Shown piece after piece: positions 12,352-29,076 of a DNA stretch of 36,865 nt; position 1 is the stretch's first letter, and each line of letters starts with the position of its first letter. The stretch covers positions 2,467-39,331 of the forward strand of contig DYJH01000010.1 of assembly GCA_020723255.1 (NCBI GenBank), read 5' to 3'. Below the pieces are notes generated by a model. It searched no databases. It was not told the origin of the DNA and saw only the letters and a program-made list of their open reading frames with translations. The position numbers were made by a program, and so were the translations under genes. Source of the DNA: Desulfonema limicola. Lineage in GTDB: Bacteria > Desulfobacterota > Desulfobacteria > Desulfobacterales > RPRI01.

Positions 12352-12356
12352 GTCTT

Positions 12357-13172: not shown

Positions 13173-13531
13173 TTTTTTGCAAAAGAAACGGGGCCGAGTT
13201 TTTCTATCTGTCCGTCATCGATCATTCTTAAAGCATCTAATGTTATTTCCATTCTGCTTTTCTGTATAATATTCTTTGCTTTTACTTCTTCCTGATAAAA
13301 TTCAAATTCTCCTTCAGTCCACCCGAAAAGAGCATATGCGGCATCAATGCCTCTTTTGGTTCCGGCAGAAGCATCAACAATATTTCCTTTTACAAAATAC
13401 ATTAATCCGGGTTCCTGTGAGTATTTGCTTTTAATTTTTAAAACACCGGTACTTGAATTCGTCCCAAAAATCTGGAACAGTTCCCCTAGATTTAGAAAAT
13501 TTAAATTTCCGGAAAGTGATATATTACTCAT
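13133..13531 (-). CDS. DUF4388 (PATAN-like) domain protein, upstream half of a frameshifted gene
   Basis: The 132-residue zero-frame product starts MSNISLSGNLNFLNLGELFQ and continues with TGVLKIKSKY, LMYFVKGNIVDASAG and ALFGWTEGEFEFYQ, the signature of DUF4388 domains found in response regulators and gliding/polarity proteins. After codon 120 the zero frame gives only a short tail and a stop at 13133. A -1 shift at 13178-13172 instead continues into two cNMP-binding domains. The start is 4 bases after the mglA stop. DUF4388 domains are often seen with MglA-type GTPases, as here. Confidence 0.8.
   Translation of the reverse strand: MSNISLSGNLNFLNLGELFQIFGTNSSTGVLKIKSKYSQEPGLMYFVKGNIVDASAGTKRGIDAAYALFGWTEGEFEFYQEEVKAKNIIQKSRMEITLDALRMIDDGQIEKLGPVSFAKNLQNAQVKSLLFP
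13172..13178 (-). other. A-AAA-AAC slippery heptamer at the frame switch
   Basis: On the minus strand the zero-frame codons are GCA AAA AAC; the last seven bases form A-AAA-AAC, a canonical X-XXY-YYZ heptamer for -1 slippage. After slipping back one base the frame reads P-S-E-R-T-S-K-E-F-A and enters the cNMP-binding domains. A run of six A is also a common place for a one-base deletion or a sequencing error; seven A would fuse the frames directly. No Shine-Dalgarno-like stimulator was seen just upstream. Confidence 0.6.
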
Positions 13532-13535
13532 TTAT

Positions 13536-14159
13536 TCACTGAGCCCAGTTAAATTCCTTTTGTAAATGAACAAGAGTAAGTTTCAGGCACTCTTTTAATG
13601 TTGCGCCAACACCCTGACCCGACAAGGCGCTTGCAGGAAAATATGGAACTTTAAGCTGTCTGTTGAGATCATTTTGCATTTCTTCTACAGGCATTATCGG
13701 TATAGTATTACCCGGGATATCTGCTATATCTCTTTTATTGTATTGAAGTACAAGTGGGATTCTGAAAATATTGAGGCCGCATTCTTTTAGGTTCTGATCA
13801 AGATCTTTTAGGGAAAGCATATTCTTTTCTCGCCTTATTGAAAAAGAATCAGCTACAAAAACAATTCCGTCGGCGCCTTTTAATACTAGTTTGCGTGTAG
13901 AAGTATATTGAACCTGTCCGGGAACAGTATATAATTGTACTTTAACATCGCATCCTTTGATTTTACCAAGTCCCATGGGAAGAAAATCAAAAAAAAGAGT
14001 TCTATCCCCTTCGGTATCAATCGTTACCATTTGGTCGGAAACCTGCTTTTTATATGTTCTGAATATATATTCTAGATTGGTGGTTTTACCGGACCTTCCA
14101 GGGCCATAAAAGACTATTTTGCATTCAATCTCACGACTTTTTAGATTAAAAACCGCCAT
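13536..14159 (-). CDS. mglA: MglA-like small Ras-type GTPase
   Basis: A 207-residue GTPase of the MglA family. P-loop GPGRSGKTT (19-27); switch region TEGDRTLFFDFLPM; T-V-P-G-Q (79-82 region), where Thr stands in place of the Ras-type Asp as in Myxococcus MglA; base motif NKRD (141-144). MglA sets cell polarity and drives gliding or type IV pilus reversal in myxobacteria; homologues in other deltaproteobacteria act in polarity or membrane-associated signalling. A GGAG site precedes the ATG. The usual GAP partner MglB (roadblock fold) is not recognisable next to it; the TPR protein upstream or the DUF4388-cNMP protein downstream may be the regulators. Confidence 0.88.
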   Translation of the reverse strand: MAVFNLKSREIECKIVFYGPGRSGKTTNLEYIFRTYKKQVSDQMVTIDTEGDRTLFFDFLPMGLGKIKGCDVKVQLYTVPGQVQYTSTRKLVLKGADGIVFVADSFSIRREKNMLSLKDLDQNLKECGLNIFRIPLVLQYNKRDIADIPGNTIPIMPVEEMQNDLNRQLKVPYFPASALSGQGVGATLKECLKLTLVHLQKEFNWAQ

Positions 14160-14191
14160 CCTGTATAACTCCGCACAATCATATATAAATA

Positions 14192-15166
14192 CTAATTTGT
14201 AAACATTCTCAAATCAAGGCTGTAATTTCCCTTTTTTGGGCCGGAATCGATTTTAGAAAAAGCCAGCACAATACCCGAGCCGTTAAGGATGGCTATTGGT
14301 GAATAAAAGTTTATATTGTTTAATTTTAAACCGGTTTTGAATTTTTCTATTAATGCTTTTTCCCTGTCCGGAATAATCAAGCTGACCATATCCTCTGATT
14401 GAAATGCAACATCCAGAACCACTTCCGACTCCTTTTTCTGACCGATATCCATTATAATTCCAACAGAAGTGATATCTAAAAATTCTTCTCTCTTATTATC
14501 GGGTTTTGAAATATGTGAAAGGGATTCACTCGGAGTCTTTCGTTTATCAGAAGCTATTTTATCAATTAAAATCTGTTGATCAGCATGTTTTTTCATCTCA
14601 GGCGCAACAATCTTTTTTCCTATTCCTTTTTCCTTTAAAAGGTTACCCAAAAAAAAATTGATTTTTTCTTCTTGCGCAGCAGAGAAGATACCGAGTTTCA
14701 ACCACTCTTCATATTGAGAGACAGCATTATCTGCTCCTGAAGAAGCAAAATAGCATCTTAAAATATTCTTGGCTGCAACAAGCCTTAATGAATCTATGTT
14801 CAGTAATTTATTGAATTCTTTAATAGCTCTTTCAAATTGGCCAAACTTCGTGAGTATTATTGCTCCTTCGAGAGTTGCTGACTCTTTATCGGTAGAAAAA
14901 GTAAATTTTTCCTTTATCAAATTCTGAATCTCTGCAGAAAGTTGGGGTATTTGTTCGGATTCTTTATATTTAGATATAGCCTTTTTTAAGGTCTCAACTT
15001 TGTTATTAATGCCTTCAAGCAATTGCTGGCTGTTTTCAGGTTTTACATTATTATTAATCAGCTCTATTAAATTTTTATACGTAAGCATTGCCTCGTTCAA
15101 TAAACCTTGAGCCCTGTATATCTCCGCTTCTTGCAAAGCTGATTTTATCTGTTCCTTGATACCCAT
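14192..15166 (-). CDS. TPR-like repeat protein, first gene of the mglA operon
   Basis: A 324-residue soluble protein with no signal peptide. The N-terminal half is helical with TPR-like pairs (AEIYRAQGLLNEAMLTYKNL; GAIILTKFGQFERAIKEFNK; AVSQYEEWLKLG). The C-terminal 100 residues form a beta-rich domain (VGIIMDIGQKKESEVVLDVA; FYSPIAILNGSGIVLAFSKI) not confidently assigned. TPR units suggest a scaffold for protein contacts. It lies 32 bases before mglA in the same direction and starts the operon after a 251-base AT-rich gap. Possible role as an MglA partner is inference. Confidence 0.6.
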   Translation of the reverse strand: MGIKEQIKSALQEAEIYRAQGLLNEAMLTYKNLIELINNNVKPENSQQLLEGINNKVETLKKAISKYKESEQIPQLSAEIQNLIKEKFTFSTDKESATLEGAIILTKFGQFERAIKEFNKLLNIDSLRLVAAKNILRCYFASSGADNAVSQYEEWLKLGIFSAAQEEKINFFLGNLLKEKGIGKKIVAPEMKKHADQQILIDKIASDKRKTPSESLSHISKPDNKREEFLDITSVGIIMDIGQKKESEVVLDVAFQSEDMVSLIIPDREKALIEKFKTGLKLNNINFYSPIAILNGSGIVLAFSKIDSGPKKGNYSLDLRMFTN

Positions 15167-15351
15167 AAATGATTAACTCACAAAATTAATAATCAGAATA
15201 TATTTAATATTGTTTTCTTTGTTTAATACCTTATTTTAATACGTAATGTCAACACCTCAAAAAATTTCGGTTATAATTGACTTATTATATCAGATTTGAT
15301 TTTTTTATAATTGATTTGATTTTTCAGAAGCACTATTTTTTATAAAACATA

Positions 15352-15377
15352 TTGACAATAATTAAAATTATTATTAC
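15352..15377 (+). promoter_or_regulatory. Possible mdh promoter with palindrome
   Basis: TTGACA (15352-15357) is a perfect -35 box, but the best -10 (TATTAC, 15372-15377) is only 14 bases away. Overlapping both is AATAATT-AA-AATTATT (15357-15372), a perfect AT palindrome that could be an operator. The surrounding 15167-15417 gap separates divergent units and holds no gene. Confidence 0.25.
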
Positions 15378-15408
15378 CTGAAATTCACTATTAACCCAAA
15401 ATAAATAA

Positions 15409-16353
<945 letters not shown>

Positions 16354-16367
16354 GACAGGAATGAAAA

Positions 16368-16871
16368 GTGGAACTTACCGACATAGCGTCTATTGAAAAA
16401 TGGGTTGAATTAGAGAAGGAGATAAACAGGAAATCAGGCCTTTGTGCTAATGTGTTTGATACCAAAGGCATACGCATAACTGATTTTCAAAACTGGCCGA
16501 ACAAACTTTGCCCCGAAATCAAGGCTACTGATAAGGGGCAAAGTTTCATATGCGCTGTTGCTCATATGAACCTTACAGCACAGGCAAAACGAACAAAAAA
16601 AGCAGTTATAGAAGAATGTGACGCCGGACTTGTCAAGATTATTTGTCCGATATTTGTAAAAGATGAATTTATAGGTGCTGTTGGCGCCTGTGGTTTGCTG
16701 CCTGATGATGGGGAAGTTGATACATTTCTAATAAACAAAATAACGGAAATTGAGGAAGAAAAACTTGACAGCCTTTCATATAATATTCCATGCATAAGCA
16801 CTCAACATTCTGAAAATATAACGTATTTTATAAAAGGAGAAATTGATAACATAACAGGCATAGCCCGTTAA
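16368..16871 (+). CDS. Stand-alone PocR sensory domain protein
   Basis: A 167-residue protein starting at GTG 16368 (AGGA 7 bases upstream; a nearby ATG at 16361 is out of frame). It is nearly all a PocR domain, a PAS-like ligand-binding module: SIEKWVELEKEINRKSGLCA, VFDTKGIRITDFQNWPNKLC, AVIEECDAGLVKIICPIFV and GAVGACGLLPDDGE with conserved cysteines. PocR domains sense small metabolites, classically propanediol, and are usually fused to HTH or kinase modules. Here no output domain is present, so it may act through a partner. It is close behind mdh and converges on the HdrD-like gene with 4 bases between stops. Confidence 0.8.
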   Translation: MELTDIASIEKWVELEKEINRKSGLCANVFDTKGIRITDFQNWPNKLCPEIKATDKGQSFICAVAHMNLTAQAKRTKKAVIEECDAGLVKIICPIFVKDEFIGAVGACGLLPDDGEVDTFLINKITEIEEEKLDSLSYNIPCISTQHSENITYFIKGEIDNITGIAR

Positions 16872-16875
16872 CTTC

Positions 16876-18084
16876 TTATTTATGCATTATTGCCTCAGCC
16901 GCAAGAGCAGCCACTGTATCAACCTTAACATCCAGCTCATAATATTTTACTATTTCAGTTAACTGCCTGTGACAAGATAAACATGCTGTTGCCAAGTGTT
17001 TTACGCCGGCTGCTTTGATCTGGTCTGCCTTGGCTTTGCCTGAAATCATCCGCCGCTTAGTGCTGTTGCTGTCCTGGAGCAATGCACCACCGCCCCCGCA
17101 ACAAACAGCGTTCATCCTGTTCGGCGTCAGTTCCACCACTTCTTTGCATATATGTGCCAGCAATTGACGGGGCGCTTCAAAAACACCGGATTTTCGCCCA
17201 AGATTACAGGGGTCATGATAGGCAACAGGATAAGGATAAGCTTCAGGATTTAAACTGATCACGCCATTTTCCAATTTATCGAGTGTAACTTCAAGAATAC
17301 TCAGCACATTGAATTTCGGCTTTCTGCCGATAAGATCTTCAGCTCTTTTCCGTAAAGCGAAAAAACCGTGTCCGCATTCCGAAAGCACCAGATTCTCAAC
17401 TCCGATGTCTTCAGCCGCTTCTATCACTTGAAGCAGCATTGTTTTTTCAATATCATCATCTTCGACAAAATAACCCCAGTTGGTAACATCCGTGTGGCGG
17501 CTCGACATTGTCCAAGATTCACCAAAAGCATAAAAAAGCCGCGCCATTGCCTGAAGATGTAGGATGTTGGTTCCCAGTTCCCGGGGGTTTGGCAGGTAAA
17601 GATATTTCGCACCTTTTTGCTCTGTCGGAATGGCAGCTTTTGAATCATCCATCTCATCGCAAAGTTCTTCATTCACCCATTCAATAGTTTCAATAAAATC
17701 CTCTTGAGTAAATCCGTTTACATCTCCGGTTTCCAAACGTGTCTGAATTCCATTTTTAATATCCTGAGGCATTCTCTCTATAGCATCCGGAAGAGACCTT
17801 GCTTTGCGAGCCACATTTTCCATTACAATTCCCATGGGGCACTCCACAGTACAGTGATTGCAAAGCATGCAGTCCCATATCATATAGCTTTGCGCCAGCA
17901 AGCTATCAAGACCCAACTGAGCCATGCGTACCATTTGACGCGGATCCGGTCCTCCTTCTCCATCATACCAGCTGCAGCGTGAAGTACAAATGCCGCATGT
18001 CATACACTCGCTTATATTATCGCCTTTATCTTTTTTATTAAGCAAGCTCAAAAACGGCGAATCAATACATATCTTTGCGTTCAT
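16876..18084 (-). CDS. HdrD/DsrK-like Fe-S heterodisulfide reductase subunit
   Basis: A 402-residue fusion of HdrC- and HdrB-like parts. The N-terminus holds two ferredoxin-type clusters: C27/C30/C33/C37 (CMTCGICTSRC) and C72/C75/C78/C82 (CMLCNHCTVECP). The C-terminal half has the CCG catalytic cluster motifs: LSECGHG, DPCNLGRKSG, AVCCGGGGALLQ and ATACLSCHRQL, which bind the special non-cubane or [4Fe-4S]-disulfide site. The partner subunit HdrA is encoded 2 bases upstream and the AAGGAG ribosome site for this gene lies in its last codons, so they make one complex. It probably reduces a disulfide or menaquinone-linked thiol using electrons from HdrA. No membrane cytochrome b is next to it. 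Confidence 0.85.
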   Translation of the reverse strand: MNAKICIDSPFLSLLNKKDKGDNISECMTCGICTSRCSWYDGEGGPDPRQMVRMAQLGLDSLLAQSYMIWDCMLCNHCTVECPMGIVMENVARKARSLPDAIERMPQDIKNGIQTRLETGDVNGFTQEDFIETIEWVNEELCDEMDDSKAAIPTEQKGAKYLYLPNPRELGTNILHLQAMARLFYAFGESWTMSSRHTDVTNWGYFVEDDDIEKTMLLQVIEAAEDIGVENLVLSECGHGFFALRKRAEDLIGRKPKFNVLSILEVTLDKLENGVISLNPEAYPYPVAYHDPCNLGRKSGVFEAPRQLLAHICKEVVELTPNRMNAVCCGGGGALLQDSNSTKRRMISGKAKADQIKAAGVKHLATACLSCHRQLTEIVKYYELDVKVDTVAALAAEAIMHK

Positions 18085-18086
18085 TA

Positions 18087-20603
18087 CTATATCTCCTTTC
18101 CGGAATCTGCCGCAGAAACAATTTTGGCAATTTTTACAGGCTCGTTAGCTGCCACACTGTAATGGCGAATCGAATTGTCCTGTAAACCCGTGTCTTCAAC
18201 AATCAGTTTAGCTCTTGCAGCGGCCAATCTGCTGCCACTGACAGAACGACAGTTTCCTTCATGGCACGCAGCAATTATAACCCTTTTGGCGCCGTTTAAT
18301 AATTGCTGAATCATCATTGCTTCACCAATCCTTCCGGCACAGGGGACCTTTATAATCCGGGCGGTTTTATTGGAAAACATTTCCATATTCATTGCAGATT
18401 TAAGCGCCAGCTCTCCGGAGCGTTCACAGGCAAATATCACGGTTTTAGAAGCGGTTATTCCTGACGTATCAGAATCCAATTCACAAACAGCAGAAATCGC
18501 TTCTGCCGGACAATGCGATACACAGATTCCGCAGCCAAAGCATGCATCAGTGACGATCACAGGTTTGTAATTGCCCTTAATTGTAACCGCAGCATGGGGG
18601 CATATCCGATAGCATGTCAGGCACCGGGCGCATTTGTTTTCATTAATTGCCGGCAATGGTTCTGTTCTTATATTACTGGTTGTCAGGGCTTCAAGGGATG
18701 CTTTAACCGCATTGATCTCACGTGCTATGTCCACTTCATCGGTTTCATCATGACATGAACCCAAAAAAAATATACCGCGCCTCGGACTTCCGACAAAACG
18801 ATGCCGCACGTTTGCAGACTGGAGAAATCCTTCCGAATCACATTGCTGTCGCAGAAAATGGGAAATTTCAGGTGCAGAAGCAGGAGGGTTAACAGCTTCA
18901 GGCAATACCAGCAGATCGCATTCCGCAGACAACCGGACACCCGGCAGGGTTGCTTCGTTCATCTCAAGCACCAAATGGCCGTTGTCTGATATTACATTAA
19001 TTTGTGCCGGATTACTTACTCTTAAGAACCTTACACCCTTATGCCGGGCATCATCATAAAGCTTCTGGCCTTTAAGCCCGTGAACCAGCATTTTTTCCAT
19101 AATGACAATGGCCGTTTGTCCTTTTTCCGCAAGAGCTGTTGCTAAATGCAGACAGGTTCGTGCGTGATCTTTCCATTCCTGCTTTTGTCGGTCAAGCCAG
19201 AATGCAACGGTTTTGGGTACTTTGGCAGGCGTTTTTTCAAAAACATCGACAAATTGGGACAATGATTTTATTTTATCAGAATCGTTAAGACCGGAATATA
19301 AAACCATTTGTGCATCACCTACCACTATAATGGATGCTGCTTTTATATTATGTTCATATCCTTTGGCGGTGAACAATAAGTCGTATTGCCCAACAGTTCC
19401 GTTTACAGAGCGTAAGCTTACAGAATAAAAAGATGTAACTCCGGATATCTCAGGTGCTTGATGATTGCCGGAATCCAGTCGTACAACCAGCCATCCCTCC
19501 TTTGACAGGGCATGGCATATCATGCCGGAATCTTTTGATTCACCCAGTACTGCAATAGTGGAATTATGTTTTGTTTTTGATAATATATTAAAATCCTGTA
19601 TAATTTTATGGGCCGCAATTATGCCCTGATCTCTTGCAGTCAAAATATCTGTGGGGCCCTGTGTTACGCCTGCGGCATAGACACCTGATGGCAGCAATGC
19701 GCCACTGCTTAAAAAGCCCCATGTGTCCGGTTTTATATCCAATTGTTTTGCAATTTCAATAACTTGCAGCGAAGGCCCGATACCCACAGACAGAACAATA
19801 AGATCAAAATGACGGGCAACTCTGGCTCCTGTTTCAGGATCTTCATGAATAACTGTAAGCTTTCCTTGTTCGCGGTCGGATAAAATTTTGGCCGGAACCC
19901 CCTGAAACAAATTGACCCTGGCTTTTACATATTCTGCCTGTGTTCGAAATTCCTTGCCGATGATCTGAAGATCAATGTGAAAAACCGTAATTTGAGCTTC
20001 CGGTATGTTATGAAGTATTTTATTTGCCTGACGCAAAGCTGTTTTGCAGCATACCTGAGAGCAATAGTCTCTGCATAGCTCACGGTTTCTGGAACCCACA
20101 CACTGAATAAAAGCAATGGCGGGTGATGTGGTATCCGGTAGAATTTCTTTTAATCCTTCCCGTTTTAATAAGTTATTAAGATCCGCTGTGGTAATCACCT
20201 GATCATAAACCCCGTACCCCAATTCAGGAAGTCTCGATGCATCAAAAGGAGTCATGCCGTTAGCCAGCAAAACCGCATTTGTTGAGATAACAGCAGATGA
20301 TTCGCTATTTAACGTTGTCCCAAATCCATCATTGTTTTTTTTGATTCCGTTTATACTGCTTTTCAGATGTATTGTTGCGTGTTTCAGATGATTCATCTGA
20401 TCTGCCAGTTCTGCGCTAAGGCAGGCGCCGCAGTTCCGGCATTCTCCGGTAGCCATGCATGCCCAGTCAAATGCCTTGCCTCCCAGATATTCGCGCTTTT
20501 CTACAAGATGAACCGAGACGCCAAAATCATCAAGTGTTTTAGCGGCAGCCATTCCTGCAATACCTCCTCCAACCACCAAAACACTCGGAGTTGATTTATT
20601 CAT
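18087..20603 (-). CDS. HdrA-like flavoprotein fused to MvhD-type hydrogenase Fe-S subunit
   Basis: An 838-residue protein. FAD Rossmann motif G12-x-G14-x2-G17 (VVGGGIAGMAAA), then C49, C55, C58 and C61, the HdrA N-terminal cluster. The middle has the family mark FIQCVGSRNRELCRDYCSQV with the C-C pair after it. From C658 two ferredoxin clusters follow (CARCLTCYRICP; CFGCGICVSHCP). The last ~120 residues are an MvhD/FlpD domain (VPCAGRIGEAMM; AACHEGNCR) which elsewhere receives electrons from hydrogenase or formate dehydrogenase. QmoB has a similar plan. The protein is longer than methanogen HdrA and contains an extra inserted second flavoprotein-like half (around 340-600). Operon with the HdrD-like gene; divergent from the AAA cluster. 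AGGAG precedes the ATG. Electron donor and acceptor are not evident. Confidence 0.85.
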   Translation of the reverse strand: MNKSTPSVLVVGGGIAGMAAAKTLDDFGVSVHLVEKREYLGGKAFDWACMATGECRNCGACLSAELADQMNHLKHATIHLKSSINGIKKNNDGFGTTLNSESSAVISTNAVLLANGMTPFDASRLPELGYGVYDQVITTADLNNLLKREGLKEILPDTTSPAIAFIQCVGSRNRELCRDYCSQVCCKTALRQANKILHNIPEAQITVFHIDLQIIGKEFRTQAEYVKARVNLFQGVPAKILSDREQGKLTVIHEDPETGARVARHFDLIVLSVGIGPSLQVIEIAKQLDIKPDTWGFLSSGALLPSGVYAAGVTQGPTDILTARDQGIIAAHKIIQDFNILSKTKHNSTIAVLGESKDSGMICHALSKEGWLVVRLDSGNHQAPEISGVTSFYSVSLRSVNGTVGQYDLLFTAKGYEHNIKAASIIVVGDAQMVLYSGLNDSDKIKSLSQFVDVFEKTPAKVPKTVAFWLDRQKQEWKDHARTCLHLATALAEKGQTAIVIMEKMLVHGLKGQKLYDDARHKGVRFLRVSNPAQINVISDNGHLVLEMNEATLPGVRLSAECDLLVLPEAVNPPASAPEISHFLRQQCDSEGFLQSANVRHRFVGSPRRGIFFLGSCHDETDEVDIAREINAVKASLEALTTSNIRTEPLPAINENKCARCLTCYRICPHAAVTIKGNYKPVIVTDACFGCGICVSHCPAEAISAVCELDSDTSGITASKTVIFACERSGELALKSAMNMEMFSNKTARIIKVPCAGRIGEAMMIQQLLNGAKRVIIAACHEGNCRSVSGSRLAAARAKLIVEDTGLQDNSIRHYSVAANEPVKIAKIVSAADSGKEI

Positions 20604-20637
20604 AATTTTCTCCTATTAAATTGATATATGACTCAAA

Positions 20638-20682
20638 ATGACTTTTTTTGTCATGGAAAGGAATATTTTAATATGCTATATA
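20638..20682 (+). promoter_or_regulatory. Divergent control region between hdrA-like and AAA cluster
   Basis: ATGAC-N7-GTCAT (20638-20654) is an inverted repeat that could bind a regulator. TATATA at 20677-20682 with TG two bases before it makes an extended -10 for the plus-strand AAA unit; a TTGTCA at 20648 is too far (23 bases). The 20604-20724/20769 gap is the only place where both divergent units can start, so joint control is plausible. Confidence 0.35.
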
Positions 20683-20769
20683 AATCAAGCATTTTGAAAT
20701 AACAGCTTCAATATCGGAATCATAATGGATTTAGTTAGTTGTTGGGGTATTACTGCCGGAGTACCAAAT

Positions 20770-21495
20770 ATGAACAGTTCTCATTATACAAAAACCAGAC
20801 GCCTCATTCCGGAAACACCGGATGACCGGTATGCCGGACATTTGATACATCCGGCAAAGCCAACCACAGTTACGGAAGGGCAATGTATCGGGCGGGAGAA
20901 TGAACTCGATCTGGTAAGAATTGCACTGGGATTAGATGAGAATTGGAAAGGTTCCAAAGACCGGGGTCTGTATAGAGCAGGATGTCAGAGAATGCGCCTC
21001 GAAGGGCCTTCAGGCAGAGGCAAGCGATCTATTGTGCTGGAGGTTGCACGACGAACTGCTTTACCCCTTTATGAAATGCACGGGCACGCCGGCATGTCAT
21101 CTGAGGATCTGGTGTTGGCCATAGTGCCCCGCGCTTCGGACGACGGTCATGAAGGTTCGCATCTTGTTATCCAGGCAAGTCCGCTGGCTACAGCTTTATT
21201 GTGGGGCGGCATCTTATACTTTGATGCAATACACCGGGCGCCCGTTAGAGCACTGACTCCTTTGGCATCGCTGCTCGGCGGGCGAATGACTCTATACTCC
21301 GGATTGACCGGTCTGCAACTTACAGCCAGGCCTGACGCCGCACCGTTTATATTTTTCTGTTCACTTGACTCTTCTGAGTCCTATAATCTGCCTGGATTTA
21401 TTGAGCAACGAACACTGCCGATATTGGAGCTTGAACCACTTAGGAAAGATAACTATGATAATTTATTAGGAAAATTAAGCAGCACCCATAAATAG
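20770..21495 (+). CDS. Degenerate MoxR-like AAA protein (probable pseudo-ATPase)
   Basis: A 241-residue protein with MoxR-family AAA fold, closely related to the next gene (shared GRENEL, RIA-GLDEN, VLAIVP, ASPLATAL, LPGFIEQRTLP blocks). Its active site is altered: the P-loop is GPSGRGKR (79-86, Arg where Thr/Ser binds Mg), Walker B is YFDA (no Glu), sensor 1 Asn is Asp200, and the protein ends before the helical lid with sensor 2. The arginine after I-E-Q is kept. It therefore probably cannot hydrolyse ATP but may join the ring with its active paralogue. The ATG at 20770 has GGAG 8 bases upstream; 20725 (15 residues more) is an alternative. First gene of a four-gene operon. Confidence 0.72.
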   Translation: MNSSHYTKTRRLIPETPDDRYAGHLIHPAKPTTVTEGQCIGRENELDLVRIALGLDENWKGSKDRGLYRAGCQRMRLEGPSGRGKRSIVLEVARRTALPLYEMHGHAGMSSEDLVLAIVPRASDDGHEGSHLVIQASPLATALLWGGILYFDAIHRAPVRALTPLASLLGGRMTLYSGLTGLQLTARPDAAPFIFFCSLDSSESYNLPGFIEQRTLPILELEPLRKDNYDNLLGKLSSTHK

Positions 21496-21504
21496 GAGTA
21501 AAAG

Positions 21505-22452
21505 ATGGTAAAAGACAGAATCCAGGAACGCAGCATAAAAATTGGAGATCATGACATATATCTTGCACAAGAATCGGAACTGCCTGAAAAATCTGCTTTC
21601 GTAGGACGAGAAAATGAACTCATGATGTGCAGAATTGCATGGGGTCTGGATGAAAACTACAGGTTTAGAAATAAAAAAGATTTGAACAACCTTTCGTTTC
21701 GTCTTTATGGAGAACCGGGAATGGGCAAAAACGAACTTGTTTACGAATTGGTCAGGCAGATCAGAAAAAATAATGGTGAACTCAAAGAGTTGCCATTTTA
21801 TTCTATGGTCGGTCACGATGAAATGGCTCCGGAAGACATGGTGCTGGCAGTAGTTCCCACTGAGTCGAGCGGACACTCGCAGGTACGCATGGTCCTCCGC
21901 GCCAGCCCATTGGCAACGGCTATACTAAATGGCGGCATTTTTTTCTTTGATGAGTTGAATCGTCTTCCGGAGCGCGCTCTGGCTCCTCTGGCACCTGCTC
22001 TGGATGGACGCGGCATGTTGTTTTCAGCAAGTTCCGGCATATGGCTGGAACCTGCCGGGAATGCATTGCCGTTTCGCTTCTGCTGTGCATTGAATCCAAG
22101 CGTCGGATCTGATCTTCCCGGATATATTGACCAGCGTACACTTCCCAAAATTGAGGTAAAATATCCAGGTCACATAGGATTGCTTGAACTCCTCCGTTCT
22201 CAGTTAACAGCGGATCTCAGCGCTGAAAATGAATACGAAAACAGTTGTGAAGAAGTCAAAAAACAAAGAATAGCTGAACTATCACAGCATCTTGAGATTA
22301 TGCTGGAAATGCTGAAAAACAGAGGAGATACCCCGTCTGTACGCCAGGGCTTAATAATTATAAGGCTTGCCCGTGCGCTCTTTCGGGAGAAAAAAGGCGG
22401 GTTGGATTTTAGCAATTGCCTGAAAAAAGCATTCGGTGCATGTGTTTTCTAA
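21505..22452 (+). CDS. MoxR-like AAA ATPase
   Basis: A 315-residue AAA+ protein of the MoxR type. P-loop GEPGMGKN (69-76; Asn replaces the usual Thr/Ser), MoxR signature HDEMAPEDMV, Walker B IFFFDELNR (145-153), sensor 1 in CALNPSVG (Asn197), D-Q-R211 arginine, and a C-terminal lid with TPSVRQG (sensor 2, near 275-281). MoxR proteins work with von Willebrand A proteins to insert metals or remodel enzymes. It begins 9 bases after the degenerate paralogue stops (AGGAG site between them), so the pair likely forms a mixed ring. The Asn in the P-loop is odd for an active ATPase and should lower Mg binding. Downstream large protein is the likely VWA-type partner. Confidence 0.8.
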   Translation: MVKDRIQERSIKIGDHDIYLAQESELPEKSAFVGRENELMMCRIAWGLDENYRFRNKKDLNNLSFRLYGEPGMGKNELVYELVRQIRKNNGELKELPFYSMVGHDEMAPEDMVLAVVPTESSGHSQVRMVLRASPLATAILNGGIFFFDELNRLPERALAPLAPALDGRGMLFSASSGIWLEPAGNALPFRFCCALNPSVGSDLPGYIDQRTLPKIEVKYPGHIGLLELLRSQLTADLSAENEYENSCEEVKKQRIAELSQHLEIMLEMLKNRGDTPSVRQGLIIIRLARALFREKKGGLDFSNCLKKAFGACVF

Positions 22453-22489
22453 AATGCCGAAAGACCGAATATAACCGGGAGAAACCGGA

Positions 22490-24580
22490 ATGAGCCGTTC
22501 TGCTTTTATGCCATATATCAAACTTGATAATATATACATAGTTCCGGTATTGCCGGATCGTCTCAGCGGCGCCTTAATGGTGCGCAGAGCAGTGCAAGAG
22601 TTGTCTATTGGATGCCGGGATGCCTTTTTGGTGGCACTCCCTGAAAGTGTGAAAGAAAATTATTTGCAGGCTGTTTGTAAACTGCCGCGTTCATCCTTTA
22701 TCTATATAGAAGATAATTCAGCATCTTTTGATGAGCCAGACAATGACAGCAGGATTAAAAAAGAACTTGTAACTGTCACACCTTGCGATGGCCTTGCTGA
22801 GGCAGTTCTTAGCGCAAACGAATTGGGCATTGAACCGCATTTTATCGACCTTGAAATATCTTTTCATTCGCAGATTCAAAGACCGCACTTCCGGCAAGAA
22901 AATATTGACATCGACGACTGGCTTTGCACAACAATTGGGGCAAAGGCGTTTGTTGATTTGCTGCATGACAATACTCCGTTGCGGCATAACCCCGCCCTGT
23001 CTGTTGACAACATGCGTGAACGGCATATGGCAGGTCGGTTACAGCAATTACATTCACGATATAAAAGAATTCTTTTCGTATGTTATGCGGAAAATGTCCC
23101 CGGAATTTTGCAGGCATTTAAGCAGTCTTCATCTGTTTTTGCTGTGCCCAAATTCAATGGATATATTTCGAGCATAGAGCCTGATACAAATCTTCTCCTG
23201 TATTTTCTTGACGATTATCCGAAAGCGGTACAGCGTTACTGGGAGAGCCGCAGTTCTTTTGATGCTTTGCAGGAATTCGATAAAATGTCCGTTGTGTTCG
23301 ATGAGATTATTGAATGCGCCGCTTCCTCGGATGTTTGGAGTTGGTCTTTACGCCACCACAGAGCCTTTAAACAGATGCTAAGCGGTGTGATGAGAGAAAA
23401 AAGGCGTGTCTCAATTCCTTTGAATGAATGCCTGGCATTGGTAAATTCATGTTACGACCGGAATTTTGAAGAAGCAGTCCGCATACAACTGTTTACTTTT
23501 CCCGAAGGCAATATATCAGAAGATGAAGTAAAACATGTGTTCCAAACAGCCGAAGTAAATGATCCGGTATCTGGATCCCGCACTGATTTGCCGCCGCAGT
23601 TTATAAATTCTGAAATTGATTCGGAAGGTGAAACGGAAAGAAACAGGAAACCACATAACTTGCAGTCTATCGGGTCTTCCACCGGAACTAATGATCGCCT
23701 GCAAATAATTATGCGTGGATTGAGACATCAGTCTTCAACTTTTCACACATACCTTAAGTGTAAAGATGGTTTTAACCCCGGAATGCCCTGGCCGGCCTGG
23801 GTTGCACACCATAACAAAATGCGGAAACGTGTATTGCGGTTTGTCGCTAATATGGCGCTTGCCGTTTCGTCGGATAGATACAGGGGGTCGCTGGAACGAG
23901 GTCTTGACCTGCGCCGAATAATACGCGCCTCACACAAAGGCGACCCGTCATTATACGTCCGCCGTCAACGAAAGAGCGCAACAATATCTTCAACAATACA
24001 GGGCATAATTCCTGTTCTTTGGTTTTTCACTACAACAGATGATACATGGTATTCAAAAAAATACATACGTACATGGAATGCTCATGAAGGTGAAGAGTGG
24101 GTCAAACGTTATTTGCTAAGCATGGAATGGGGTGAAGCAGAAGTCTTTTCTTCAGCAGACAGTGAGAAGATAAGGAAACGGCTTGAAATAAGACAGCTCA
24201 CATTTTTGGTGTCATTTGCTGAAATGGAACTTACCCCTTCTGAAATTGAAGGGTGCTATGGGGTTGCAGCCGGCCAGATTCCTTCCCGGGACATTGCTAT
24301 TGGTTATACAAAGCTGCTTAATAATATAATTGACAGCGCTACATCCCATATCTATTGTGTTGTACCATCGAATGACAAAGTACCATCTGCGCTTACCAGC
24401 TATGCAAGTCGCTCAAAAAAAAACATTGTTGTGTTAACGCATTCAGATATCGGCACCTTAGATGTTGAAAAGCTTTCCCGTTCCGTTACGGTAGATATCG
24501 GCGGAAAGTCAAAAAACAAAAAGAACACGCTAATGGCTGTTAAGCAATATAAAGAAATGGTGGATCATTTTTGGTGGTAG
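22490..24580 (+). CDS. Large AAA-partner protein, DUF5682-like N-terminus and degenerate VWA-like C-terminus
   Basis: A 696-residue cytoplasmic protein not assigned to a known family with certainty. The N-terminal part has the layout of DUF5682/TraB-like proteins: YIVPVLPDRLSGALMVRRAV near residue 16, a mid helix MRERHMAGRL, and the strand RILFVCYAENVPGIL, where family members have an active-site His (here Asn). Around residue 460 it reads RYRGSLERGLDLRRIIRAS, which resembles the basic lead-in of MoxR-linked VWA proteins, followed by VLWFFTTTDDTW (about 507) where the MIDAS D-x-S-x-S would be; the metal residues are missing. Later strands YCVVPSND and NIVVLTHSD fit a Rossmann-like VWA fold. 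This is inference by pattern. Its place directly after two MoxR-like genes supports it being their partner. Confidence 0.5.
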   Translation: MSRSAFMPYIKLDNIYIVPVLPDRLSGALMVRRAVQELSIGCRDAFLVALPESVKENYLQAVCKLPRSSFIYIEDNSASFDEPDNDSRIKKELVTVTPCDGLAEAVLSANELGIEPHFIDLEISFHSQIQRPHFRQENIDIDDWLCTTIGAKAFVDLLHDNTPLRHNPALSVDNMRERHMAGRLQQLHSRYKRILFVCYAENVPGILQAFKQSSSVFAVPKFNGYISSIEPDTNLLLYFLDDYPKAVQRYWESRSSFDALQEFDKMSVVFDEIIECAASSDVWSWSLRHHRAFKQMLSGVMREKRRVSIPLNECLALVNSCYDRNFEEAVRIQLFTFPEGNISEDEVKHVFQTAEVNDPVSGSRTDLPPQFINSEIDSEGETERNRKPHNLQSIGSSTGTNDRLQIIMRGLRHQSSTFHTYLKCKDGFNPGMPWPAWVAHHNKMRKRVLRFVANMALAVSSDRYRGSLERGLDLRRIIRASHKGDPSLYVRRQRKSATISSTIQGIIPVLWFFTTTDDTWYSKKYIRTWNAHEGEEWVKRYLLSMEWGEAEVFSSADSEKIRKRLEIRQLTFLVSFAEMELTPSEIEGCYGVAAGQIPSRDIAIGYTKLLNNIIDSATSHIYCVVPSNDKVPSALTSYASRSKKNIVVLTHSDIGTLDVEKLSRSVTVDIGGKSKNKKNTLMAVKQYKEMVDHFWW

Positions 24581-24604
24581 AATTACCATAAAGAGGAGAT
24601 AATT

Positions 24605-24964
24605 ATGATAGGTATTGAAGAGCTGAAAAATGATCAGGATCTTTTAAACAACATAAACTGGGACATGACTCCTGAAGAAGCTGTAAGACTTTATCTGGAA
24701 TGGGGCAACAACTGGACACGAGGTAATTTTGTAATCAGGGGCAAAGAGGATGTTTCTTACTATTTTGTAGTAAACACATGGGGAAAAGACCCTGTGGTGT
24801 ACCTTATGCGCAGAAATTCGGATGAAGCGACAGAACTTGCGGAAATAAAACTGCCTCAAAAAGTCAAACAGAACTTTATGGAATCCATAGGCAATAATAA
24901 AGGTGTTTATTCAATAGAAGGCGATGTAAAAGAGTGGTTGCAAAAAGAACTCCTTGGCCGTTAA
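24605..24964 (+). CDS. DVU0772 family protein
   Basis: A 119-residue soluble protein with features W-D-M-T-P-E-E-A, LYLEWGNNW and SYYFVVNTWGKDPVVYLMRR, recognised as the DVU0772 family, small conserved proteins of sulfate-reducing bacteria without known activity. A strong AGAGGAG site precedes the ATG, 24 bases after the large partner gene, so it belongs to the AAA operon. Its stop (TAA) overlaps the stop of the converging thioesterase gene. The family link supports the sulfate-reducer origin. No catalytic motif is seen. Confidence 0.7.
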   Translation: MIGIEELKNDQDLLNNINWDMTPEEAVRLYLEWGNNWTRGNFVIRGKEDVSYYFVVNTWGKDPVVYLMRRNSDEATELAEIKLPQKVKQNFMESIGNNKGVYSIEGDVKEWLQKELLGR

Positions 24965-25443
24965 TTGATCTTTTTTTCTCTGATTCTTTCAGCAAGACGC
25001 ATATCTCTTCTGGCCTTGGCCTCATTGTTCCTTCGGATTTCTTCTTCAGTTTCAAGAATAAGAGGAGGAACCTGGGCTGGTTTTCCATTCTGATCCAAAG
25101 CAACATAAGTTAGATAAGCAAGCGCCGTGGTTCTGGTTTCACCGGTTATGAAATTTTGGGCTTCCACTTTAACACCAATTTCCATAGAGGTTTTGCCCAC
25201 CATATTAACACTGGCCTTTAAAATTAAAAGATCTCCTATATAAACCGGGCTGTAAAAATCAAGCCGGTCTATAGAAGCTGTGACAACATTGCAACATGCA
25301 TGTCTGGTAGCAACAATACCTGCGGTAGAATCTATGTGTTTCATTACCACCCCGCCATGTACATTTCCGGCAAAATTGGCATCCAGATGTGTCATTTGCT
25401 GAATTGTTGTCACCTGGCTGTCATTTATCCTTTTTCCTTCCAC
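24961..25443 (-). CDS. Acyl-CoA thioesterase, hotdog fold (YciA/BACH type)
   Basis: A 160-residue hotdog-fold hydrolase that splits acyl-CoA into acid and CoA. Family marks: MTHLDANFAGNVHGGVVMKH (with the catalytic Asn/Asp-Gly-Gly helix), DRLDFYSPVYIGDLLILKA and the strand VKVEAQN; a basic charged tail (RRDMRLAERIREKK) ends the protein. The start is GTG at 25443 with GGGGGAG just upstream; no ATG fits. Single hotdog domain, likely hexameric as in YciA. It stands alone, converging with the DVU0772 gene by overlapping stops. Possible role in releasing CoA from the acyl-CoA pathways of the region. Confidence 0.85.
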   Translation of the reverse strand: MEGKRINDSQVTTIQQMTHLDANFAGNVHGGVVMKHIDSTAGIVATRHACCNVVTASIDRLDFYSPVYIGDLLILKASVNMVGKTSMEIGVKVEAQNFITGETRTTALAYLTYVALDQNGKPAQVPPLILETEEEIRRNNEAKARRDMRLAERIREKKIN

Positions 25444-25746
25444 TGCTCCCCCTTTTATCGATAAGTTAAACCTTTTTTAAAAGTATATTTTGTATATTAT
25501 TTAGCTTCATTTATTACAGAATTCAACTAAATGAATAAAAATGTTCACACGAAATAAAAATTGTTATCTTATTTGTTTAATAATTCCAATAAAATATAAA
25601 ATAATCAAAGGAAATAAATTGAGAATATCATAAAAATTCTTTCAATTTTAATAATATTGCATATCATAATAGAATATATATGGTTATTAATTTTGTCTTT
25701 CATCAAATTTAAAAATAAATTCTTATCATTTTAATGGAGGTAAAAC
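25444..25746. other. AT-rich gene-free region with candidate lipoprotein promoter
   Basis: This 303-base divergent gap is very AT-rich and holds no gene. For the plus-strand lipoprotein a candidate promoter is TTGTCT (25693-25698), a 17-base spacer and TAAATT (25716-25721), each 4/6 to consensus. No clear repeat or operator was recognised in the rest. Confidence 0.4.
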
Positions 25747-26361
25747 ATGAAACTACGAATTGTATCTTTTCTTACACTTGTAATATTTATTTTGGGAATA
25801 TCCGGTTGTGCGAGCATTCCGGAAGAACATCAGGGTGCTGCTAAAGGCGCCGGAATTGGGGCAGTAGCCGGGGCTATAGGAGGTGCAATGATAGCAGGGG
25901 AAGGATCGCGCACTAAAGGAGCAATCATTGGTGGGCTTGCCGGGGCTTTGATTGGCGGTGCAATTGGTAATTATACCATAGATAAGAAGAAAACCGCAGA
26001 GGAAACCTCAAATAAATACAATTACCAGCCATCCAGCGGAATAATTGTAAGAATCGAAGGGGCTTCAGCAAACCCAACAAATATAAAACCAGGCGAGAAA
26101 GTTAATCTTGATGTAACCTATGCATTGTTGTCTCCATCTTCGGATAGTCCTGTCAACATTACCGAGTCCCGTGAAGTAAGACTGAACAACGAACTTGTAG
26201 GCAATCCGGAAGTAAATGTCTCTCATACTGCCGGCACTTACACTTCTTCCATACCGCTTTTTCTGCCTGCTGATGCTAAAAAAGGCGCCTATAAAGTAAT
26301 TTCAACTATCAAAACAGATTCAAGCAGGGACTCGCGCGAAACTTCTTTTGAAGTACAATAA
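25747..26361 (+). CDS. Glycine-zipper lipoprotein
   Basis: A 204-residue exported lipoprotein. The signal peptide ends in a lipobox, L-G-I-S-G-C, with Cys at residue 21. A glycine-zipper stretch follows: GAAKGAGIGAVAGAIGGAMI and IIGGLAGALIGGAIGNY, which can pack in membranes as in SlyB/OmpA-like lipoproteins. The C-terminal half is a beta-rich periplasmic domain (IKPGEKVNLDVTYALLSPSS, then SSIPLFLPADAKKG) resembling an immunoglobulin-like fold. GGAGG precedes the ATG. It is a single-gene unit closed by a strong hairpin. It probably contributes to outer-membrane stability; exact role unknown. Confidence 0.78.
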   Translation: MKLRIVSFLTLVIFILGISGCASIPEEHQGAAKGAGIGAVAGAIGGAMIAGEGSRTKGAIIGGLAGALIGGAIGNYTIDKKKTAEETSNKYNYQPSSGIIVRIEGASANPTNIKPGEKVNLDVTYALLSPSSDSPVNITESREVRLNNELVGNPEVNVSHTAGTYTSSIPLFLPADAKKGAYKVISTIKTDSSRDSRETSFEVQ

Positions 26362-26396
26362 CCACCTACACTACAATAATCAGAATATAAAAGCAT

Positions 26397-26422
26397 AAGG
26401 CGCCGGACATCACCGGCGCCTT
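26397..26422 (+). terminator. Strong GC hairpin after the lipoprotein gene
   Basis: AAGGCGCCGG (26397-26406) pairs perfectly with CCGGCGCCTT (26413-26422) around a 6-base loop. A T-run follows only about 15 bases later (26438-26444), so it is either a terminator of reduced U-tract type or a processing/stability hairpin. It lies 36 bases after the lipoprotein stop. Confidence 0.6.
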
Positions 26423-26483
26423 CCATACAAAGTAGTCTTTTTTTGCTGATTATATTTGAATATCTCTAAGCAACAAGGAGTTT

Positions 26484-28196
26484 ATGAAATTGCCTCAAAT
26501 GCCATCATCAAATGATATCTCCATAGTCCTTGGAGGAGAAGCTGGTCAGGGCATCCAGACCATCGAGCAATTATTGACAAAAATTCTGAAACTTAACAAT
26601 TTGCATGTCTTTGCCACTAAAGAATATATGTCACGGGTTCGAGGTGGAAGTAATACTACCGGTATCCGTGTCGGCTCACATCCTTTACAGGCGCCTGTTG
26701 ACCGGATAGACTTGCTTATACCCTTAGACAAGAATGTACTCCCTCGACTGCAACATCGCATTACGGAGCAGACAATTATTGCCGGAGACAGGGAAGCGCT
26801 GAAAACTGACCTAAATGTCATTGATATTCCTTTAAAAAAGCTCTCGATAGAGTTTAGCGCCGAAATTTATTCCAACACCATTGCCCTTGGTCTGATACTT
26901 GCTCTATTGAAAACCGATGCTTTGATTATGAAAAAATATATCGGAAAGCATTTCGGAGAAAAAGGCGATAAAGTGGTTGAACTTAACATCAGGGCTGCCG
27001 ATCTTGGCTTTAAGCAGGGTCATAAACTGATAGAAAACGGTACAGTAAGTTTTCCGGAATTATCAATATCGGATATTCAAAACGATATCATGATAAACGG
27101 TTCCGAGGCAATCGCCATGGGAGCTATTGCAGGCGGATGCCAGTGTATTACCTCTTATCCCATGACCCCCGGTACCGGAGTAATCACTTTCATGGCTGGA
27201 GTTGAGCATGATTTTGAACTGATAGTCGAACAAGCCGAGGATGAAATTGCAGCCATTAATATGGCAATTGGAGCATGGTATGCAGGCGCAAGAGCCATGG
27301 TTACGACATCAGGAGGTGGGTTCGATTTAATGACTGAAGGCTTGAGCCTGGCCGGCATGCTTGAAATGCCGGTGGTTATTCATCTTGGCCAGCGGCCCGG
27401 TCCAGCCACAGGACTGCCCACACGCACGGAACAGGGTGATCTTGAACTTGCGCTTTATGCCGGGCATGGCGAATTTCCAAGAATTATCCTTGCCCCAGAA
27501 TCTCTTAAAGATGCATTTTATATTTCACAAAAGGCGTTTAACCTTGCCGATAAATATCAAGTGCCTGTGATTATACTGACAGACCAGTATCTGGTAGATA
27601 CTTATTACAACATACCGCCATTTGATATAAATCAACTTGTGATTGAAAGCTGTGTTATCGAAACAGATGAAAATTACCTTCGTTATCAGCTCACAAATAA
27701 CGGTATTTCGCCCCGTGGCATACCGGGAAAAGGCAAAGGGCTTGTAGGAGTGGATAGCGATGAGCATGACGAGGCAGGCCACATAACCGAAGATCTGGAG
27801 TTAAGGGTTAAAATGGTAGATAAGCGTCTCAAGAAACTTACGCTTATCAAGGAATCCGTCATTCCGGCTCAAATATATGGCTCTTCGGATTCACCAACAT
27901 TTGTTATCAGCTGGGGTTCTACAAATCCCATAGTAAGAGAAGCTGTAACATGCCTTGGCAATAAAGATCTGGCACAGATCGCACTCCAACAAGTGTATCC
28001 ATTGCCGGGAAATCTTCGCCATATTCTTCTATCCGCCAAACATACGATTATTGTTGAAAACAATGCGACCTCACAACTTGGCAAGCTGATTTTACGGGAA
28101 ACAGGATTTCAAATCGATAAAAAGATTTTAAAATATAACGGCTTGCCCTTTACCGTGGAAGAACTGATGCATGCCATATCCGAAACAATCTCTTAA
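26484..28196 (+). CDS. korA: 2-oxoacid:acceptor oxidoreductase, fused gamma-alpha subunit
   Basis: A 570-residue subunit. Residues 1 to about 190 are the gamma domain (VLGGEAGQGIQTIEQLLTKI; ATKEYMSRVRGGSNTTGIRV). From about 203 comes the alpha domain (NGSEAIAMGAIAGGCQCITS, YPMTPGTGV; EDEIAAINMAIGAWYAGARA; TSGGGFDLMTEGLSLAG). With the beta subunit next door it carries out CoA-dependent oxidation of a 2-oxoacid, giving acyl-CoA, CO2 and reduced ferredoxin, or the reverse. The fused gamma-alpha layout is typical of 2-oxoglutarate:ferredoxin oxidoreductases. AAGGAG precedes the ATG and korB starts 10 bases after. The ferredoxin-type delta subunit is absent here. 2-oxoglutarate as substrate is likely, not proven. 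Confidence 0.88.
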   Translation: MKLPQMPSSNDISIVLGGEAGQGIQTIEQLLTKILKLNNLHVFATKEYMSRVRGGSNTTGIRVGSHPLQAPVDRIDLLIPLDKNVLPRLQHRITEQTIIAGDREALKTDLNVIDIPLKKLSIEFSAEIYSNTIALGLILALLKTDALIMKKYIGKHFGEKGDKVVELNIRAADLGFKQGHKLIENGTVSFPELSISDIQNDIMINGSEAIAMGAIAGGCQCITSYPMTPGTGVITFMAGVEHDFELIVEQAEDEIAAINMAIGAWYAGARAMVTTSGGGFDLMTEGLSLAGMLEMPVVIHLGQRPGPATGLPTRTEQGDLELALYAGHGEFPRIILAPESLKDAFYISQKAFNLADKYQVPVIILTDQYLVDTYYNIPPFDINQLVIESCVIETDENYLRYQLTNNGISPRGIPGKGKGLVGVDSDEHDEAGHITEDLELRVKMVDKRLKKLTLIKESVIPAQIYGSSDSPTFVISWGSTNPIVREAVTCLGNKDLAQIALQQVYPLPGNLRHILLSAKHTIIVENNATSQLGKLILRETGFQIDKKILKYNGLPFTVEELMHAISETIS

Positions 28197-28206
28197 TGGA
28201 GGCTAA

Positions 28207-29076
28207 ATGATGAACTATGAAATGGGGAAAATAGATATCGCATGGTGTCCCGGCTGCGGCAACTTCGGAATACTAAATGTTTTAAAACGCGCTGTTTCCG
28301 AACTAAATATAGATCCTCATAACCTGGTGCTGGTATCAGGCATTGGACAGGCAGCCAAAACTCCACATTATCTTCGAGCAAACTTCTTCAACGGTCTTCA
28401 CGGTCGGGCTCTGCCCCCTGCCACGCTGATTAAGGCGGTAAATCCTGGTCTGCATGTGATCATTACAAGCGGGGATGGCGATATGTACGGTGAAGGCGGC
28501 AATCATTTCATACATGCTATACGCAGAAATCCTGATGTTACTGCAATCGTACACAACAACATGGTTTACGGCCTTACAAAGGGCCAGGCTTCACCTACAA
28601 GCCAACTGGGCTTTGTAACTCCTATACAGGTTGACGGCGTATTTGAGGAACCTTTCAATCCGTTGGCTGTAGCGGTATCTCTGAACGCTTCTTTTGTAGC
28701 CCGTACATCTATTCACAATCTCGATCTTAGCTTGAATATTTTTAAACAGGCAATACAACATAAAGGCTTTGCACTTGTGGACACCTTTACTCCCTGCATT
28801 TCCTTTAACAAGATTAATACCAGGAAATGGTATGAGGAAAACACCTATGTTATTGACGGCAGCCATGATCCCACGAATCGGAATTCCGCATTCAGCAAAG
28901 CATGTGAGTCCTATCCCTGGCCGCTTGGAATTATTTATAAAAGCCCGGCAAAGCTAAGTTTTGAAGAAAACCTGTATATTTATAAAAATAATAATAAACC
29001 TGCTATAAACCGTGAAGTGCAATGGGATAAATTGAAATCATTGATTGAAAACAAAAAAATATTGTCACCCGGTTAG
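28207..29076 (+). CDS. korB: 2-oxoacid:acceptor oxidoreductase, beta (TPP-binding) subunit
   Basis: A 289-residue subunit holding thiamine diphosphate and one [4Fe-4S] cluster. Signatures: [18 protein letters not shown] with the first two cluster cysteines, [20 protein letters not shown](H), the TPP/Mg motif [20 protein letters not shown] and [18 protein letters not shown]. The later cysteine in [10 protein letters not shown] completes the cluster pattern. GGAGG lies just before the ATG; a second ATG follows directly. It works with the preceding gamma-alpha subunit. The stop overlaps that of the converging alpha/beta hydrolase by 4 bases. Confidence 0.9.

Follow-up and report, generated by a model that had tools for sequence, protein, structure and literature searches.

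CbbQ/CbbO and CoxD/CoxE are, like NorQ/NorD, MoxR/VWA pairs that serve as activators of metalloenzymes. The present work deals with a trio of genes in which MoxR-type AAA+ proteins are likewise combined with a large partner protein. It is located on the + strand of a stretch of 36,865 nucleotides from Desulfonema limicola (assembly GCA_020723255.1, contig DYJH01000010.1), the whole of which is referred to below as the window. The trio encodes a degenerate MoxR-like protein of 241 amino acids (20770..21495), a second MoxR-like protein of 315 amino acids (21505..22452) and a partner of 696 amino acids (22490..24580). NorQ/NorD, as described in an excerpt of PMC9976466, resembles it in that a MoxR AAA+ protein has a dedicated partner encoded next door. 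The window partner differs from this type by the absence of a recognisable VWA domain or metal ion-dependent adhesion site (MIDAS), and no metalloenzyme target is kept in the neighbourhood.

The YehL-YehM-YehP-YehQ operon of Escherichia coli (MoxR, DUF5682, VWA and SWIM) displays the same order of a MoxR gene followed by a DUF5682-related gene. The MoxR proteins of the family studied here are related to YehL (E 9.5e-5), which is treated as a named MoxR subfamily in the part of PMC3893208 at hand. In contrast to this operon, the window trio has no adjoining VWA or SWIM gene and contains a second AAA gene, and the hhalign alignment with YehM covers the N-terminal domain only. The MoxR-vWA ternary conflict systems (VMAP, iSTAND, FtsH, beta-propeller; Kaur et al. 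2020, PMC7159879) are similar in combining MoxR with a large partner. TIR, NB-ARC and NACHT genes surround the two loci designated below as subfamily II, a further point of similarity. The trio nevertheless has neither the vWA component nor VMAP, and TraB and DUF5682 are each mentioned zero times in the text of that paper. Relatives of the partner share with the TIKI superfamily the N-terminal fold and, in most cases, its His/Glu/His positions. The window copy displays P/A/N instead; its domain is joined to a helical and a C-terminal region, and MoxR is its companion. TraB/PrgY also belongs to this superfamily.

In the open-licence literature searched, no paper was found on the function of YehM, whose mentions among the papers listed are in two that are genome papers by title, nor on YehP together with MoxR, and DUF5682 and DVU0772 are terms without a paper. 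None of the titles listed concerned a pair of MoxR with ChaN, Tiki or TraB, a result that decides little as the term 'chan' is unspecific. An AAA module with a DUF5682-related partner and one degenerate AAA protein is not described in these papers; in this respect the sequence-only reading, made earlier without database searches, is supported.

The MoxR pair and its partner protein

Our preferred reading, held as a whole with middling confidence, is that the trio is a strongly diverged three-gene member of the modules made of MoxR and a TIKI/DUF5682-type partner, and would now work as an AAA+ remodelling adaptor or regulator with a dead pocket. The classification is solid; the mechanism is inferred.

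Both AAA proteins match the Pfam family AAA_5 (E 1.5e-9 and 2.4e-10; 38.5 and 41 bits, with a cut-off of 22), in agreement with the earlier prediction of two adjacent MoxR-like genes. Neither possesses the full motif set of a MoxR ATPase. Several losses have accumulated in the first protein: its Walker A motif (GPSGRGKRS, 21004..21030, + strand) has GKR in place of GK[T/S], Walker B (FDA) has DA in place of DE, the sensor-1 N is replaced by D and the whole C-terminal lid is gone, the arginine-finger position being kept. This is the AAA protein previously called degenerate, and the term is appropriate. The second protein retains Walker B (FDE), the sensor-1 N, the arginine finger and the lid with its arginine; its P-loop (GEPGMGKNE) departs from GK[T/S] by a GKN motif (21709..21732, + strand), a deviation missed in the earlier reading. 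In a MoxR tree reduced from 107 to 28 rows by a k-mer rule, each of the two window genes has the other as its closest relative (100/98), and this sister relation shows, at the level of sequence, that they arose by tandem duplication.

The partner comprises an N-terminal TIKI/ChaN-type domain (residues ~1-235), a helical middle and a C-terminal region of unknown fold. The protein itself has no Pfam match at E<=1, does not reach the curated cut-off of DUF5682 (PF18934) and yields a TraB-family hint only in NCBIfam (E 0.15). DUF5682 is matched at E<=1 by 11 of 21 members of the partner family (best E 6.8e-6); two members score 17.4 and 19.8 bits, below 26, and a third has no match at 0.1. Comparison of the 63-row family alignment with YehM using hhalign points to a homologous N-terminal domain (E 2.3e-5, probability 75.8, 169 columns). 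Of the earlier label 'DUF5682/VWA-like', the first half therefore holds remotely and for the N-terminus only, the 696-residue protein being without a Pfam match of its own. The second half is not confirmed: no VWA family is present among the matches of the 21 members at E<=1, and hhalign against the VWA protein YehP gave E 0.22. A VWA domain eroded beyond recognition is possible.

The TIKI fold of the N-terminal domain was recognised by a second look with VIA-align together with motifs, ChaN, Ere-type proteins, HopBA1 and RRSP being among the TIKI proteins compared. The VIA-align lists shown contain no VWA chain, from which absence does not follow, as they put the C-terminal region to little test; searching solved structures by profile yielded no match below E 0.15. 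The assignment of the N-terminus to a TIKI/ChaN-type fold related to DUF5682 is a solid classification. The His/Glu/His signature is whole in 57 of 62 relatives (E49 in 62/62, H22 in 57/62), and P22, A49 and N202 stand at these positions in the window protein. The conserved His-Glu catalytic pair of TIKI proteins is thus absent (P22, A49), the positions having been equated with RRSP His3902/Glu3930 by order and spacing and not by superposed coordinates. Judged from these residues, the window copy is an extreme member of its family, with two tandem MoxR genes, one of which has lost the catalytic AAA residues, and a partner that has lost the TIKI-like signature.

Such losses could also signify decay, and codon positions were compared in this respect. 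Across 228 codons compared between the two AAA genes, none of them a stop, identity is 56% at position 1, 62% at position 2 and 32% at position 3. When neutral change was simulated 300 times down to a protein identity of 42%, no run remained stop-free (mean 7.1 stops); of the runs to 65% identity, 1.3% did (mean 4.3). The corresponding values with relatives are 0.42, 0.56 and 0.30 for the first AAA gene, 0.44, 0.55 and 0.24 for the second and, with the relative L015, 0.35, 0.48 and 0.25 for the partner, so that in all three genes the second position is best kept and the third least. This pattern without stops indicates that selection long kept the three frames open, and past purifying selection on the trio is in this sense shown by sequence comparison. 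That the trio is nevertheless decaying, perhaps after being gained from outside, with catalytic residues lost unselected and reading frames intact since the loss is recent, is considered a doubtful alternative. It would account for the catalytic positions missing from the first AAA protein and the partner, for the missing lid, and for the occurrence of the partner in a single one of ten genomes at the family/genus level, the window's own; it is at odds with 1,252 codons free of stops, with third positions 32% identical between the AAA genes against 62% for second positions, with the short spacers, and with a composition that does not set it apart in the window, 17 of 67 overlapping segments deviating from the remainder by as much or more. 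A contig chimera is not supported by this composition, which is the only test applied and a weak one.

The wider family and its GKN-type members

A profile scan of genome contigs with the alignment retrieved at least 122 relatives of the partner, and locus counts are based on the best 80 of them; the same scan with the single 696-residue protein found no relative. The record titles among these best 80 include Geobacteraceae, Desulfobacterales, Acidobacteria, Omnitrophota, Armatimonadetes, Sericytochromatia and others, and the earlier idea of a system of sulfate reducers is therefore not supported. Identity to the window protein amounts to 19-24% in the relatives that were aligned. The latter is matched in 54 of 395 genomes of the phylum, own included; relatives occur in 12 class genomes besides its own (241 searched), and 30 of 389 genomes of the order, again with its own, match the partner alignment, five of them by weak N-terminal matches in open reading frames (ORFs) of fewer than 460 amino acids. 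Some further order-level matches are only partial.

The usual plan consists of a MoxR gene followed by the large partner gene: MoxR lies no more than 300 bases upstream of the partner in 65 of the 80 loci and in 35 of a further set of 40 phylum loci, at least four of which repeat members of the former. MoxR genes were counted at E<1e-20, a weak second AAA match in L243 (E 6e-5) being left out, and 2 of the 80 loci are cut off by a contig end. The ORFs were picked mechanically, so that some starts or overlaps are wrong (e.g. two gaps of about -800 bases). None of the 80 + 40 loci contains two intact MoxR genes, those of L089 being two overlapping fragments. The family is widespread and, it seems, unstudied, and the three-gene, tandem-AAA form of the window is an unusual version of the usual two-gene form.

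No third gene recurs in more than 16 loci among the flanking clusters printed for the 80. The largest cluster (16/80) is an opposite-strand ORF that overlaps the module in its longest example, and the next (15/80) is almost always on the opposite strand. A same-strand gene of a ferrochelatase cluster occurs in 13 of the 80 loci (L028, L045, L057, L060, L069, L075, L087, L089, L097, L100-L102 and L105). One of them was checked by profile: L028 (537-7956) encodes an ahbD-like protein (440.3 bits, cut-off 500), hemE, hemH, MoxR and the partner. In Geobacteraceae-like loci the MoxR/TIKI pair thus often comes after heme genes. The family could on this basis serve tetrapyrrole (heme) metabolism, with a chelatase- or chaperone-like AAA protein and a partner of the ChaN fold, ChaN being a heme binder by its PDB title and one of the fold matches. 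This is judged unlikely. Such a gene is missing from 67 of the 80 loci, a shared fold shows no function, and the 13 loci all belong to Geobacteraceae or close kin by record title or tree place, so that a single inherited gene order may be involved.

The probable closest counterparts of the window AAA genes are found in two loci, L180 (genome G086) and L248 (G516), which constitute subfamily II. The GKN-type P-loop of the second window AAA protein is common to both of their MoxR proteins, as is a GH motif. Among 109 MoxR ORFs of the 80 + 40 loci, 104 have GKT, one GKN (L248) and four neither by the pattern used. In the MoxR tree one branch unites the window pair with the L180 and L248 proteins (99/96); as the branches are long, this grouping is likely and not proven. 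At 39 diagnostic columns, the first AAA protein agrees with L180/L248 in 13 and with the usual form in 3, the second in 12 and 10. The partner agrees with each in 8 of 37 columns. Positions 489-584 of the profile of the two subfamily-II partners match the C-terminal half of the 696-residue protein (E 2.8e-5), the other listed matches of this profile starting in the N-terminal half. The His/Glu/His positions are kept in both subfamily-II partners. No other full-length match to their profile was found (one in 395 phylum genomes, one in 389 class genomes), and searching the families of the two genomes added none at full length (1 match in 12 genomes in one; in the other, among 24, one full-length match plus five short ones in ORFs of fewer than 400 amino acids).

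Both subfamily-II loci are tied to conflict genes. In L180, a TPR gene, MoxR and a 783-residue partner are placed between two DUF4062 proteins whose further domains are of NACHT or another AAA type and whose repeats are TPR or WD40. L248 (383-12999) contains genes for RyR-AAA, a ThsB-type TIR protein, the GKN-type MoxR, a 782-residue partner, a TPR protein, SLOG-TIR and NB-ARC-TIR, and the TPR proteins of both loci are homologous (31% over 315 amino acids, E 3.5e-51). The trio might accordingly belong to the GKN-type subfamily as a module of cellular conflict (defence), in which the partner would sense an invader and the AAA ring would release the action of an effector. This possibility is tentative, although the branch of the MoxR tree, the GKN and GH motifs (GKN being rare, with one case in 109 MoxR ORFs plus L180) and the common context of the two loci all speak for it. 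It has to be set against a subfamily of only two loci and a large protein that does not side clearly with it. Directly beside the trio there are an HdrA-like and a DVU0772 gene and no TPR or conflict gene, the remainder of the window not having been scanned for such genes, and PADLOC gave no match at E<=1 for these three proteins or the DVU0772-family protein.

A virus or plasmid origin of the trio is not supported. No relative was found in viral contigs, and phages gave no match at E<=0.01. In PHROGs the AAA proteins match only AAA-ATPase-type families, one of which is labelled porphyrin biosynthesis, and the 696-residue protein has no match. Plasmids yielded one weak Neochlamydia match to the latter (E 9e-5, 24.9% identity over 30% of its length) and none to the subfamily-II partner.

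Neighbouring hdr and DVU0772 genes

The sequence-only reading had placed the trio in a four-gene unit with a DVU0772-family gene (24605..24964, + strand, 119 amino acids), sharing a control region with divergent hdr genes. The gene calls themselves were reproduced: four successive + strand ORFs at 20770-24964 separated by 9, 37 and 24 bases, the last of which belongs to the DVU0772 family (NF045682, E 2.1e-38), and divergent upstream genes, identified by profile searches as those of an HdrA-like protein carrying an FlpD domain and of an HdrD-like protein carrying CCG and Fer4 domains. For the first AAA gene the start at 20770 was preferred over 20725 because a GGAG is present at 20758-20761, 8 bases ahead of the ATG. 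Scans for promoters and terminators gave results at chance level, and Rfam had no RNA element matching at gathering score.

The grouping of these genes into one unit did not survive comparison with a sister genome. Among ten genomes of the genus, G162 holds the only other full-length close copy of the window HdrA (73%, residues 1-837), its hdrD and DVU0772 both being 86% identical to those of the window. In G162, the homologue of 10148-11209 through hdrA form one block from which the trio is absent. Beside this block, and 82-90% identical to the window, lie DVU0772, 12 bases after the homologue of 10148-11209, then a homologue of 24961-25443, which we take by its look to be a thioesterase, and a pair homologous to 26484-29076, by its look presumably a 2-oxoacid oxidoreductase. 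The block is inverted in the window, where the trio occupies the hdrA/DVU0772 junction. Blastn homology stops at 20618, 15 bases before the hdrA ATG, and restarts at 24605, the first base of DVU0772; the trio and its flanking spacers (20619..24604) have no match at E<=0.01 in the 50 kb of the G162 contig searched. The region upstream of hdrA is therefore not common to G162, and DVU0772, which belongs to the wider group, follows the trio by chance. As a side observation, the two species of one genus are separated by a large inversion (window 10148-20603 and 24605-29076 versus L171) with one breakpoint at the trio. In addition, two window ORFs (12357-12965 and 13133-13531, both on the - strand) match a single G162 gene of 390 amino acids (L171:7954-9126), so that the window copy looks split.

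DVU0772 occurs in 24 of 30 relatives, own genome included. Around it, no ORF matching the first three genes was present in any of 11 loci (L171-L179, L182 and L183), DVU0772 itself being listed in nine. In L179 (6931-10231), from another family of the order, it stands beside a pair like that of 26484-29076 (42% and 48% identical), so that this pair may be an older neighbour of DVU0772. Conversely, blastp of the window HdrA, HdrD and DVU0772 (E<=1e-4) found no match among the locus ORFs of relatives in 12 and 80 loci, and DVU0772 none in the 40 phylum loci. Partial HdrA/HdrD matches exist in three of the latter (28-37% identity): a partial HdrA in L221 (29%), an HdrD-like ORF in L223 (28% over 109 residues) and, in L249 (1927-3231), two HdrD-like ORF pieces (34% and 37%) situated some 2-3 kb away from the MoxR/partner pair. 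All three are presumably ordinary iron-sulphur or flavin proteins. A conserved neighbourhood, whose absence the sequence-only reading had named as grounds for refutation, is thus found for the AAA gene and its partner and fails for hdr and DVU0772.

A four-gene operon with DVU0772 and hdr is rejected in view of the G162 arrangement, the blastn edges and the loci of relatives. As far as comparison of sequences goes, the unit is shown to be three genes, with hdr and DVU0772 as bystanders joined by rearrangement, DVU0772 being judged outside the module. The proposal that the AAA system acts with DVU0772 in the maturation or repair of the Hdr complex is largely refuted and now highly improbable. 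It could invoke the position of the trio, adjoining hdrAD and 24 bases from DVU0772, and the three partial matches among the 40 loci; it is confronted with a sister genome that has hdrAD and DVU0772 otherwise arranged and without the trio, with homology that stops at both edges of the trio, and with the consistent absence of hdr and DVU0772 from the 12 and 80 loci and of DVU0772 from the 40. The stress or conflict role that had been mentioned beside it is possible, and is more likely than Hdr maturation.

Proposed mechanism and significance

The mechanism that we favour can be briefly summarized as follows. A ring would be formed by the second AAA protein, either by itself or joined by the first, which would then be a non-catalytic subunit. 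This ring would bind the helical and C-terminal part of the 696-residue protein and remodel whatever the latter holds. In the usual form of the module, the TIKI domain, with its mostly kept His/Glu/His signature, would act on the client as a hydrolase. In the window copy the dead pocket would be limited to binding, and the module would be an ATP-driven adaptor or regulator. The TIKI domain of the window being hardly catalytic, a binding or remodelling role is the best guess. That a MoxR ring would use its partner to bind and reshape a client is an idea drawn by analogy from the MoxR rings and partners NorQ/NorD and RavA/ViaA, as presented in the parts of PMC9976466 and PMC3893208 at hand. A stronger and rather improbable version, slightly behind decay or defence in our estimate, is that the usual module acts as a TIKI-type protease or hydrolase driven by ATP, its client being fed or reshaped by the MoxR ring, and that the window trio is its pseudoenzyme derivative, in which a half-dead duplicated ring would drive a dead TIKI domain as a regulated binding device. 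The papers searched describe no AAA+ hydrolase machine of this sort.

A number of observations weigh against our preferred reading. Codon-position signals describe the past, and a recent inactivation is possible. No relative with tandem AAA genes and the same residue losses was found, and nothing therefore shows that the window version is conserved. In the tree of the large protein the window falls beside Acidobacteria, with a branch length at the limit, a placement that was not used. With Foldseek by itself neither of two structure models had a match at E<=0.001, and the C-terminal half of the 696-residue model is poor (mean predicted local distance difference test, pLDDT, 63.8; predicted template modelling score, pTM, 0.56). 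Despite room on the contig, no MoxR is present in 6 of the 80 and 4 of the 40 loci, and in 7 and 1 it lies more than 300 bases from the partner. H22 and H202 are missing, with E49 kept, in five relatives whose record titles point to Acidobacteria groups (L090, L091, L095, L096 and L104), a second loss separate from that of the window. To these must be added the two-locus size of subfamily II, the near-even column counts of the second AAA protein and of the partner, the lack of adjoining conflict genes, and the partial Hdr matches, those of L249 included.

The gene order of a single genome, as this locus illustrates, may mislead on function. The window copy itself provides a natural contrast, in which the same architecture is retained with the active sites replaced. 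Should the combination of a MoxR motor with a TIKI hydrolase prove true, it would give a first handle on YehM/DUF5682 and would represent a new class of AAA+ machine in many environmental bacteria, named Geobacteraceae strains included.

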